From Verrucomicrobia bacterium Tous-C9LFEB (lineage in GTDB: Bacteria; Acidobacteriota; Terriglobia; Terriglobales; Acidobacteriaceae), in NCBI GenBank assembly GCA_903970445.1, contig CAJCIP010000058.1, forward strand, positions 62,001 to 126,000: DNA of 64,000 bases, given 5' to 3'. The notes beneath the pieces are model-generated. The model saw nothing but the letters and a program-made list of their open reading frames with translations, searched no databases and was not told the origin of the DNA. The position numbers and the translations under genes were made by a program. Shown here piece by piece: positions 836 to 3,812 of the stretch; the stretch's first letter is position 1; each line of letters begins with the position of its first letter.

Positions 836-2221
836 TTATCCCGGAATCATCCGCAGCACCTTCAGCAAGGCCTCGCGTGGAATTCTCTCCTGCGTTCCCG
901 TTGCAAAAGTTTTCACCGTTACGGTATGACTCGCTACTTCGTCTTCGCCCAGCAGCATAATGTGGCGCGCTAGTTTGTCGGCGGTGTCGAAGCTCTTGCG
1001 CAGCTTGAAGCTGCCGTCGCCGACTTCGATGGTCAGCCCTTCTTTACGCAGATCGCGTGCGAGCTTCAGGGCTGCGGCGTTCTGCCCGGCACTCAAAGGG
1101 GCGATGTAGGCGTCAAGCTTCCTGGCTTTTTCAACCTGCGATTCTATGTCCGAGCCTGCTTGCTTCGCGTCGCGCTCGGCTTCTTCGATCTGCGCCTGCA
1201 GCGTGAGGATGAGGCGGTCTTCACCGATGGCGAAGCCAATGCCGGGGGCTTTCGGGCCGCCGAGCATCTCGCTTAGGCCGTCGTAGCGTCCGCCCCCGAG
1301 CAGCGCGTTCTGCGTGCCCAGTCCAGTGGTTACCGTGAATTCGAAGGTGGTGCGTGTGTAGTAGTCGAGTCCGCGCACGAGGCGCGGATTCACGTGGTAC
1401 GGCACGCCACAGGCATCGAGCGCGGCGAGCACCTGTGCGAAGTGTTCGCGCGATGCGTCGCTCAGGAAGTCCGCAATCTTTGGCAGCGCATTGATGATGT
1501 CCTGGTCCTGTTCCTCTTTTGAATCAAGTACGCGCAGAGGATTGGTTTCCGCCCGGCGCTGATTGTCAGGGCACATGCGTTCTCGAACTGGAGCAAGTGC
1601 TTCGCGAAGAGCGACGTTAAAACGCGTGCGATCCTCTGCATTGCCGACTGAGTTCAGTTCCAGCCGCCAGCCTTTTACGCCCAGTTCATCAAGGTAGCTC
1701 GCGAGCATTTCCAGCAGCTCGGCGTCACGCAACGGTGACTCCGAGCCGGATGTCTGCGGGCCGATGACCTCCGCGCCAATCTGCCAGAACTGGCGATAGC
1801 GGCCACGCTGCGGGCGCTCGCGCCGAAACTGCGGACCGATGTAATACAGCTTTTGCAGCGAGCCTGTCTCGCCGAGTTTGTGCTCGATGTACGCGCGAAC
1901 GACACCGGCGGTGGATTCAGGGCGAAGCGTGAGCGACTGCGCTTTTTCGCTGGCCGCGCGCGCGCGGTCTTCCCAGGTGAACATCTCTTTCGACACGATG
2001 TCTGTTTCTTCGCCCACCGAGCGCGAGAACAGCGAGGTGTCTTCGAAGATGGGAGTGCGAATTTCGCCGAAACCATAGCGTGCAAACACGGCCCGAGCAG
2101 TAGATTCGACATGGTTCCAGAGGGGCGTCTGGTCGGGCAGCAGATCGCGCGTTCCGCGAACCGCTTTGATGGTTGGGCGCGGCTGAGTTTTCGCCGCACC
2201 CTCTTGGTTGCTTGAGCTCAT
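836..2221 (-). CDS. hisS: histidyl-tRNA synthetase
   Basis: Cytoplasmic class II synthetase charging tRNA-His. 461 aa with all hallmarks: the LRPESTAGVVRAY segment (about 99-111), motif 2 YYIGPQFRRERPQ (about 126-138), the histidine motif LVRGLDYYTRT, and motif 3 with the glycine-rich GGGRYDGL followed by GIGFAIGEDRL. The C-terminal anticodon-binding domain follows (AYIAPLSAGQNAAALKLARDLR). It has about 15 extra residues at the N-terminus. It starts 21 nt after the DUF6249 gene on the same strand, so it is probably co-transcribed with it from the ECF-type promoter at 2.8 kb; an internal promoter is not excluded. Confidence 0.97.
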   Translation of the reverse strand: MSSSNQEGAAKTQPRPTIKAVRGTRDLLPDQTPLWNHVESTARAVFARYGFGEIRTPIFEDTSLFSRSVGEETDIVSKEMFTWEDRARAASEKAQSLTLRPESTAGVVRAYIEHKLGETGSLQKLYYIGPQFRRERPQRGRYRQFWQIGAEVIGPQTSGSESPLRDAELLEMLASYLDELGVKGWRLELNSVGNAEDRTRFNVALREALAPVRERMCPDNQRRAETNPLRVLDSKEEQDQDIINALPKIADFLSDASREHFAQVLAALDACGVPYHVNPRLVRGLDYYTRTTFEFTVTTGLGTQNALLGGGRYDGLSEMLGGPKAPGIGFAIGEDRLILTLQAQIEEAERDAKQAGSDIESQVEKARKLDAYIAPLSAGQNAAALKLARDLRKEGLTIEVGDGSFKLRKSFDTADKLARHIMLLGEDEVASHTVTVKTFATGTQERIPREALLKVLRMIPG

Positions 2222-2242: not shown

Positions 2243-2725
2243 TTACCGCACCAGTTCGACCGGCGCTACTGGTCTGCTGTTCATCTGCGATTCTTCGAGC
2301 TCGCGCGTTTGGATTCTCGTATCGACCAGGAAACCCACGCCGATCGCCAACGGAATGAGCGCTGCGGCCGCGCCGGAAAGCACTTCGCGGATCTGCAAAA
2401 CAGCAGAGAGCACGATAAAGAAGAGCGCGACACCGACCCCCGTGAAGAGAAGCACAATGCCTGCACGGCGTGAATTAGCGCGGCGCCTCGCAAGATTTAC
2501 ATCAGGCCGTCCGTGGATAGCGGCCAGTTCGGCGGGTGTGGGCGGCGGAGCGATGCCTTTGGCGATGGCCGCAAGGCGCTCCTGTCCCTCGATCTCGCGG
2601 GTGCGAATGCCTGACCAGATGCCCGCAACGACAATGCCCAGAATCATGAGGCAGCCTGCGACAGGAACGCTGAAAGGGCTTGAGAGTGGGCCTTCGGAAA
2701 ACATGGCAAGAAGTTCGAGGTGCAT
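2243..2725 (-). CDS. DUF6249-like membrane protein
   Basis: 160 aa with three predicted membrane segments (about residues 19-40, 88-110 and 118-135) separated by a charged cytoplasmic-type loop (TREIEGQERLAAIAKGIAPPP). The layout resembles DUF6249 proteins, which are often encoded beside ECF sigma factors; their function is not known. The SD AGGAGA lies 7 nt before the ATG. The gene diverges from the sigma factor gene and its promoter mirrors the sigma promoter, so it is probably a member of that regulon. Confidence 0.75.
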   Translation of the reverse strand: MHLELLAMFSEGPLSSPFSVPVAGCLMILGIVVAGIWSGIRTREIEGQERLAAIAKGIAPPPTPAELAAIHGRPDVNLARRRANSRRAGIVLLFTGVGVALFFIVLSAVLQIREVLSGAAAALIPLAIGVGFLVDTRIQTRELEESQMNSRPVAPVELVR

Positions 2726-2764: not shown

Positions 2765-2832
2765 TTTGACTTCGGGCGCTTCACAAAGTTTCAGCAGGCC
2801 GTGTGAAACTTTGTGAAGCGTTTGCAGTCAAA
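2765..2832. promoter_or_regulatory. symmetric divergent ECF-type promoters on a 17-bp inverted repeat
   Basis: Perfect inverted repeat: 17-bp arms at 2777-2793 and 2804-2820 with a 10-nt centre (2794-2803). Read outward, each arm begins TGAAACTTT and, after a further non-conserved 6 nt, both sides show GTCAAA again (2827-2832 on the plus strand; 2765-2770 as its complement on the minus strand). That gives TGAAAC-17 nt-GTCAAA in both directions, a typical ECF -35/-10 geometry (TGAAAC is the -35 of sigma-W/M class factors). Start sites would lie about 15 nt before the sigma ATG and about 33 nt before the DUF6249 ATG. Confidence 0.65.
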
Positions 2833-3469: not shown

Positions 3470-3812
3470 AAGGCAGACGACCGAAATGATCAACAAGCAG
3501 CATGAGGCATTGGAGAACTCGATCACTGTCGCGCTCGAGCAGCCACAGAGCCCTGCGATTCCAGCTAATTTTGCCGCACAGGTAGCGGCACACGCCGCAA
3601 CGCTGCCGCGCCGATCTCCTGTGGCGCGTCCACGCTATGCGCGCGCTGTTTCTATTTTGTTGACTGCTGTCCTGGTTGTGGCCCTCTTTATTCTGGCGCC
3701 GCATGCGCAACCGAGCTTTTCCAGTGTTGGCTTCGATATAGAGTTGATGGCGACTGCACTGCTTGGAGCTCTGTTGTATTGGCTGACACGCGTGCACGGC
3801 GAGTCGCGTTAA
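3459..3812 (+). CDS. probable membrane anti-sigma factor
   Basis: 117 aa from a GTG that overlaps the sigma gene by 11 nt; an ATG at 3486 would give 108 aa. The N-terminal 65 residues are soluble and helical, followed by two membrane spans (ARAVSILLTAVLVVALFIL and about IELMATALLGALLYWL) and a very short tail. Position directly after an ECF gene, translational coupling and small size suggest an anti-sigma factor, but no HxxxCxxC zinc motif is present, so the family is not one of the zinc anti-sigmas. Function is inferred from context. Confidence 0.6.
   Translation: MHDERQTTEMINKQHEALENSITVALEQPQSPAIPANFAAQVAAHAATLPRRSPVARPRYARAVSILLTAVLVVALFILAPHAQPSFSSVGFDIELMATALLGALLYWLTRVHGESR

Follow-up and report, generated by a model that had tools for sequence, protein, structure and literature searches.

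Back-to-back predicted ECF promoters between a sigma factor gene and a divergent DUF6249 gene in Acidobacteria

The window analysed here, a stretch of 64,000 nucleotides, contains a gene for an ECF sigma factor and, divergent from it, a gene for a DUF6249 protein that is followed by hisS (Table 1); these gene names, which an earlier note had assigned from the letters of the DNA, were borne out by profile matches. The sigma factor consists of a Sigma70_r2 domain (residues 13-80) and a Sigma70_r4_2 domain (residues 128-180), with a linker of 47 residues by these borders, so that it has the composition by which ECF (group IV) factors are recognised, sigma2 and sigma4 domains alone, joined by a short linker. 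It matches TIGR02937 (sigma70-ECF) with 119 bits, and the ECF factors SigW, SigE and sigma-H are among its nearest solved chains. Ahead of the gene stands TGAAAC-N17-GTCAAA, the combination of an AAC-containing -35 box with a CGT/GTC-type -10 box that canonical ECF factors have before their own genes.

The small protein encoded directly behind the sigma gene gave a structural model with two short helices followed by two long helices, which we take to be membrane helices. Neither Pfam nor NCBIfam gave it a match at E 0.01, it matched no anti-sigma family, and its model had no Foldseek match at E<=0.001; by position and topology, it is a candidate anti-sigma factor. In relatives, the ORF directly downstream of the sigma gene often overlaps it by 4 nt, and 46 of the 68 loci have a related ORF by the loose criterion P[AE][GDN][FY]. 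On the other side, the DUF6249 protein is probably a membrane protein, judging from its sequence and a helical model. No Foldseek match to this model was found at E<=0.001, and a search of plasmids for DUF6249 gave nothing at E 1e-3. DUF6249 was also seen in Caulobacter vibrioides and Bacteroides ihuae, which were included as control genomes. Further out, on the minus strand (92-758), two short overlapping ORFs of 136 and 96 aa resemble a PIN-type toxin/antitoxin pair, as read from the translation alone.

Table 1. Coordinates of the genes and sequence features around the divergent promoters in the window.
Feature	Position	Strand	Remarks
hisS (histidyl-tRNA synthetase), 21 nt after DUF6249	836..2221	-	TIGR00442, 454.6 bits
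DUF6249 protein, 160 aa, constant divergent partner (from sequence comparison)	2243..2725	-	PF19762, 44.7 bits (cut-off 33)
-10 box GTCAAA, predicted DUF6249 promoter	2765..2770	-	from pattern and family comparison
Perfect 17-bp inverted repeat with 10-nt gap	2777..2820		outer 8 bp of each arm unconserved in relatives
-35 box TGAAAC, predicted DUF6249 promoter	2788..2793	-	TGAAACTTT at 2793-2785; TGAAAC in 68/68 family loci, TGAAACTTT in 46/68
10-nt gap separating the -35 boxes	2794..2803		length kept, sequence much less so
-35 box TGAAAC, predicted sigma-gene promoter	2804..2809	+	kept in relatives as TGAAACTTT (2804-2812), 64/68 family loci
-10 box GTCAAA, predicted sigma-gene promoter	2827..2832	+	17 nt past TGAAAC
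ECF sigma factor gene, 204 aa	2855..3469	+	Sigma70_r2 and r4_2; presumed to read the two promoters
Small membrane protein, 108 aa, candidate anti-sigma factor	3486..3812	+	by position

Between the two divergent genes lies a perfect 17-bp inverted repeat, present exactly as the earlier note had described it, with the left arm CGCTTCACAAAGTTTCA (2777-2793) and the right arm TGAAACTTTGTGAAGCG (2804-2820) separated by 10 nt. Read outward from this centre, either strand gives TGAAACTTTGTGAAGCG, then 6 nt that differ between the two sides (TTTGCA and CCCGAA, respectively) and then GTCAAA; both the difference and the placement of GTCAAA 17 nt outward of TGAAAC, at 2827-2832 (+) and 2770-2765 (-), had likewise been seen correctly. 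The repeat is the longest perfect one in the window (for loops of 3-30 nt), the next independent one having 13 bp, and three shuffles of the window yielded none above 11 bp. It belongs to a wider imperfect repeat of 29 nt (86% complementary), and the strand has a predicted fold of -39.8 kcal/mol as compared with -17.3 kcal/mol in shuffles (z -7.4). The -10 boxes are 56 bp apart (2771-2826 between them), and that of the sigma gene ends 22 nt before the ATG at 2855. In ECF promoters, transcription usually starts 7-10 nt from the GTC. With this spacing, starts are predicted at ~2838 (+) and ~2759 (-), ~79 bp apart. Across the 3.68-Mb genome, TGAAAC-N16-18-GTCAAA was found just at these two sites, with 1 match to a reversed-pattern control.

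We then compared this arrangement across relatives. A protein search recovered a DUF6249 orthologue in 23 of the 28 genomes of the genus; the sigma gene was divergent beside it in 22 of these, all 22 with both box pairs. In the remaining genome (G013; sigma factor 72% identical), the two genes lie ~60 kb apart on the same contig, each with a box pair of its own. The exact pattern TGAAACTTT-N14-GTC was present in all 23 genus genomes that have DUF6249 and absent from the 5 without it. In the sister genus, a DUF6249 match was found in 38 of 62 genomes. A family sample was assembled from the genus, the sister genus and the 11 strong matches of a wider sampling of the family, giving 71 protein-anchored loci, in which the sigma gene is divergent next to DUF6249 in all but that of G013. 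After removal of this locus (L019, with the sigma gene elsewhere), both box pairs were identified in 70 of 70 side-by-side loci, 69 by script and one (L132) by eye. These conserved boxes strongly support a pair of divergent promoters of ECF type, serving the sigma gene and DUF6249, respectively, and a lack of conservation upstream of such gene pairs, which the earlier note had named as grounds for abandoning its reading, was not what we found. Relatives of this kind are non-independent, and several genome_contigs records represent the same genomes as those carrying G handles; G432 is represented by the genome_contigs piece L097, its own matches lying at contig ends, and G429 was left out of the sample.

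Departures from the common form were few: L132 has spacers of 18, L130 an N18 spacer, read by eye, on the DUF6249 side and L152 a CGAAAC on the sigma side. For the tables of arms and alignment columns we used 68 loci, having removed L130 (R spacer 18) and never having included L132. Neither GTC nor the A at position 29 varies on either side in any of the 68. The gap between the -35 boxes measures 10 nt in 62 of the 70 loci, 11 in four, and 9, 22, 32 and 33 in one each, while the mean identity of its sequence is 0.305 between the two genera and 0.40-0.42 within them, so that the length of the gap seems to be kept more than its sequence. In the wide gaps of L009, L011, L131 and L192 (21-33 nt), the inserted DNA has A/T tracts amid GC-rich surroundings, which resemble the UP elements contacted by the alpha subunit of the polymerase. 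Between GTC and the sigma start there are 9 to 285 nt (sd 44 over 69 loci, with starts assigned by script). In the sister genus (L042-L059 and others), the script-chosen TTG or GTG start mostly falls 9-11 nt past the GTC, and the sigma mRNA may be leaderless there, or nearly so.

A further 22 family loci with weaker DUF6249 relatives (L133-L151 and L175-L177), kept outside the family counts, were examined as well. None has the mirror pair. The fetched piece showed no sigma match in 21 of them and, in L176, a sigma gene on the same strand. The mirror layout is thus confined, in the family, to one DUF6249 subgroup, and DUF6249 as a whole is not tied to it.

A perfect palindrome with a 10-nt centre, near-constant in length across the family, has the look of a dimer site, and the repeat might be taken for the operator of a dimeric transcription factor, its likeness to -35 boxes being incidental. 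Under that reading it is hard to see why the GTC boxes should be as invariant as the arms (68/68), why each half should persist alone with its gene in G013, or why the halves should be kept where the centre stretches to 22, 32 and 33 nt; moreover, in another family of the class the distance from arm to GTC shifts to 18-19 on both sides. We consider an operator very improbable. Even more so, at the very bottom of the scale of likelihood, is a functional role for the DNA cruciform or transcript hairpin that, according to the earlier note, the repeat could form. While the strong predicted fold and the standing of the repeat as the longest perfect one in the window would fit such a structure, the perfect arms are 7-9 bp long in 50 of the 68 loci and reach 17 bp in the window alone, with 14, 14 and 13 bp next in rank. 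In addition, with both predicted starts beyond the ends of the repeat, neither promoter would transcribe it, and a hairpin in RNA would need readthrough from outside.

The extra 8 bp of each arm in the window may be due to chance or to a neutral template switch (quasi-palindrome correction) that extended the conserved 9-bp arms. Such a switch is compatible with two functional promoters, and we regard it as a real possibility, if somewhat short of an even chance. It would account for the window being the outlier among 68 loci, with 17 bp where the commonest length is 9, but the best relatives of the sigma factor, at ~74% identity, are too distant to polarise the change, and with the window left out the match between arms within a locus is not above that of shuffled pairs (p 0.14). 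By the same comparison of spacers, arm-to-arm conversion as a general process was rejected.

To find the arrangement independently of its genes, we scanned 84,980 species genomes blindly for GAC-N15-AAGTTTCA-N10-TGAAACTT-N15-GTC, a pattern with 22 fixed bases. This returned 43 stretches, 42 of them distinct (L099 being the same as L109). A sigma gene adjoins the pattern in 43 of 43, and DUF6249 is present within the fetched piece in 42; in the last (L087) the fetched piece ends before reaching the gene, which another copy of that genome (L160) does show. One stretch (L105) is titled Rhodanobacteraceae and contains an Edaphobacter-type module with boxes as in the sister-genus genome G440, so that the title probably reflects a binning error.

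A DUF6249 match was lacking in 29 genomes of the two genera (5 of 28 and 24 of 62). We tested 17 of these for the sigma factor at E<=1e-25 and none had it, as against 3 of 3 genus controls; sister-genus sigma factors, ~50-58% identical to the query, scored E 1e-49 or better and should therefore pass this threshold. Strict pairing fails in two genomes. One, G428, has the sigma gene and the box pair with no DUF6249 match, on a contig that ends ~50 nt beyond the box. Another, G429 (L172, G429:C78), has the sigma gene beside a DUF6249 gene with an in-frame stop, possibly a natural loss of the partner.

The same patterns were used to look for a wider regulon. The search for TGAAAC-N16/17-GTCAAA-type sites that the earlier note had proposed gave two sites in the window genome and, in relatives, a pattern that tracks the module. 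When one mismatch was allowed in the window genome, 7 sites were added to the 2 exact ones, as compared with 18 in the reversed-pattern control. In the 28 genus genomes, 44 of the 57 matches to TGAAACTTT-N14-GTC lie at the module, and the 13 further exact sites are close in number to the 10 matches of the control. In the 62 sister-genus genomes, TGAAACTT-N15-GTCTAA was matched 69 times, with 65 of these sites at the module and 4 elsewhere (control, 1). The regulon thus looks nearly private at the stringency used, at which weaker sites would escape.

The earlier note had proposed that one sigma factor could drive both itself and a DUF6249-hisS operon at equal strength. For DUF6249 this agrees with the comparison; as a general target, hisS does not hold, being mainly a feature of the window genus. 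Equal strength would be a conjecture; the full TGAAACTTT box stands on the sigma side in 64 of 68 loci and on the DUF6249 side in 46 of 68. In the window genome, the 21-nt distance and the lack of any sigma-70-like site found within 2150-2950 suggest that hisS may share the DUF6249 transcript. In other genus members the distance between the two genes varies from ~7 to 580 nt (extrapolated from BLAST), and hisS follows DUF6249 in 20 of 23 genus loci versus 2 of the 22 sister-genus loci whose sequence runs on for at least 550 nt past DUF6249, a count from which 15 further sister-genus pieces that end too early were left out. It follows that hisS behind DUF6249 is not a fixed feature, and, as far as gene neighbourhoods tell, DUF6249 rather than hisS is the constant partner of the sigma factor.

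Turning to more distant relatives, in another family of the class we found a relative of the G131 DUF6249 protein in 24 of 121 genomes. An ECF sigma gene, its product ~30% identical to the window sigma factor where BLAST aligns the two, is divergent from it in 10 of the 11 best loci. Mirror promoters with spacers of 18-19 were identified by script in nine of these ten, and by eye in the tenth (L186). The gap between the -35 boxes is 9 in six of the nine and -2 in three (L182, L183 and L184), where, in GTTTCGAAAC, both -35 boxes overlap by 2 bp, an arrangement that should make the two polymerases exclude each other. One locus (L179) reads GTCATAA on both sides. In the phylum as a whole, PF19762 was matched at E<=1e-6 in 55 of 297 genomes. 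Of the 41 places outside the window family, 40 were fetched, the missing one (G783) lying at a contig start. Among the 69 loci collected (L179-L247), 39 have both a sigma gene and DUF6249, 28 divergent (27 distinct after removal of L205, the same place as L192) and 11 on the same strand.

When read by eye, the boxes of many of these divergent loci vary among lineages and agree between the two sides of a locus, with TGCAAC facing TGCAAC (L211 and L233), TGTAACAATC facing TGTAACAATC with GTCTGT (L246), TGAAACCG facing TGAAACCG with GTCCAA (L218 and L220), and -10 boxes of GTATCA type (L191). As inspection by eye is biased towards similar pairs, we also scored the best outward-facing pair of each locus with a motif-free script, against 200 dinucleotide shuffles per locus. 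This gave p<=0.05 in 18 of the 27 divergent loci (~1.4 expected), 11 of them at the floor of 0.005, while nine (L187, L199, L208, L210, L211, L227, L231, L233 and L243) were above p 0.05. In L187, L191, L199 and L233 the script ranked first a pair other than the promoters seen by eye; the significant result of L191 thus belongs to a pair that is not its promoters. Outside the window family the gap between the -35 boxes is variable, from -2 to over 100, with some lengths read by eye. Helical phasing, in which gaps of 10, 22, 32-33 and -2 would represent ~11-bp steps, was rejected, since the series is broken by gaps of 12, 13, 16, 21, 23, 26, 59 and >100.

A second layout was observed in which a DUF6249-like gene and an ECF sigma gene lie on the same strand and no mirror pair was found (L194-L196, L198, L200, L201, L203, L204, L206, L207, L209 and L176).

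The variation between lineages bears on whether one or both promoters might be read by another ECF sigma factor of the same genome. A loose first look gave 10 to 36 sigma candidates per genome (unconfirmed as sigma genes), and TGAAAC/CGTC-type boxes are common among ECF promoters: those of Bacillus subtilis sigma-W and sigma-M, with a consensus of the TGAAAC-N16-CGT(A/C) type, are similar to the boxes of the window and belong to larger regulons than that of the module. Yet the sites track the window-type sigma gene in both presence and absence, and both sides have the same variant boxes in distant lineages, which makes a reader encoded elsewhere improbable.

Both promoters are most likely read by the adjacent sigma factor, and the locus very probably represents a positively autoregulated ECF sigma factor with a near-private two-promoter regulon, a reading built on comparison of genomes. 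The box pair is kept, stands in register with each gene and follows its gene upon separation (G013); its presence and absence follow those of the sigma/DUF6249 pair, and its sequences match on both sides in many distant lineages. We infer that the sigma factor reads both boxes, that the small ORF encodes its anti-sigma factor and that a gap so short and constant couples the two polymerases or limits them. The holoenzyme would bind TGAAAC-N17-GTC(N)NA on either strand. Rightward, this would transcribe the sigma gene and, next to it, the gene for the small membrane protein, a positive autoregulation that probably includes the anti-sigma factor; leftward, it would transcribe DUF6249, together with hisS in the window genus. 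Held by a membrane anti-sigma factor and freed by a signal, the sigma factor would raise both transcripts together. As no other exact site was found in the window genome, such a circuit would be close to a private two-promoter regulon.

At a start distance of ~79 bp, there would be just enough room for two core polymerases facing away from each other. A bolder version, which we put forward tentatively and think rather doubtful, makes the face-to-face -35 boxes themselves the regulator: two holoenzymes of the same sigma factor within ~10 bp would compete or make contact, autoactivation and DUF6249 output would be hard-wired to one another, and DUF6249 would be an obligate, dose-matched partner, acting as brake or effector in a two-promoter ECF circuit that many lineages of the phylum have retained.

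Several features of the module have counterparts in known systems. The original marks of ECF factors are listed as positive autoregulation, AAC in the -35 box, CGT in the -10 box and a co-transcribed anti-sigma factor (PMC8103513). The window resembles this canonical form in its two-domain sigma factor, AAC -35 box, GTC-type -10 box and predicted promoter ahead of its own gene, and in the small membrane protein gene directly downstream of the sigma gene; its -10 box reads (N)GTC as against CGT in the ECF rule. It differs in that the same boxes recur in a further promoter, which stands back to back with the first (at 10 nt in 62 of the 70 family loci) and serves one DUF6249 protein, with few further sites at the stringency used. 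A partner gene divergent from the sigma operon is also found in the EcfG/NepR - PhyR system of Alphaproteobacteria, where the sigma operon and phyR are both transcribed from promoters of that sigma factor (PMC8103513). There the partner is PhyR and EcfG governs the general stress response, whereas the module pairs its sigma factor with DUF6249 and has a regulon that looks private; the comparison covers gene order and promoter use. With the bidirectional promoters of E. coli, the window shares pseudo-symmetric DNA, divergent transcription and possible polymerase competition (Warman et al., PMC12825309). Those promoters share a -10 element and commonly have starts 10, 18 or 23 bp apart, whereas in the window the -35 sides face each other, with predicted starts ~79 bp apart; with -10 boxes separated by 56 bp, the window lies outside the definition of a bidirectional promoter given there. 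In a literature search whose scope left out most subscription papers, we found none that ties DUF6249 to sigma factors and no Acidobacteria ECF promoter of this form, nor an experimental one, and a search on divergent promoters found none on a sigma/DUF6249 module; the name DUF6249 turned up in a single paper, apparently on a plant kinase.

Acidobacteria are widespread in soil, and for 71 family loci there is now a predicted sigma factor together with its exact promoter, a set that is extended by the 27 more distant divergent sigma/DUF6249 pairs. For DUF6249 this provides a first testable role, as the partner of a sigma factor. The module would be a very small natural positive-feedback circuit with two separately readable outputs, and its conserved spacing, along with the head-to-head overlap in some relatives, offers a direct test of whether polymerases compete at ECF promoters placed back to back. 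Distant lineages, in which the boxes of the two sides have changed in matching ways, form a natural data set for the evolution of ECF promoter specificity.

Among the 13 further sites in the genus, three (L066:789, L067:815 and L068:791) are promoter-like and stand before similar proteins, outer-membrane-receptor-like with a CarboxypepD_reg domain (by Pfam in L066 and L068, and judged from the sequence in L067); this gene is a possible extra member of the regulon. Box pairs also precede similar proteins in two genus genomes (L070:875 and L074:877), the protein of L074 being of the TIGR03435/DUF3738 family.
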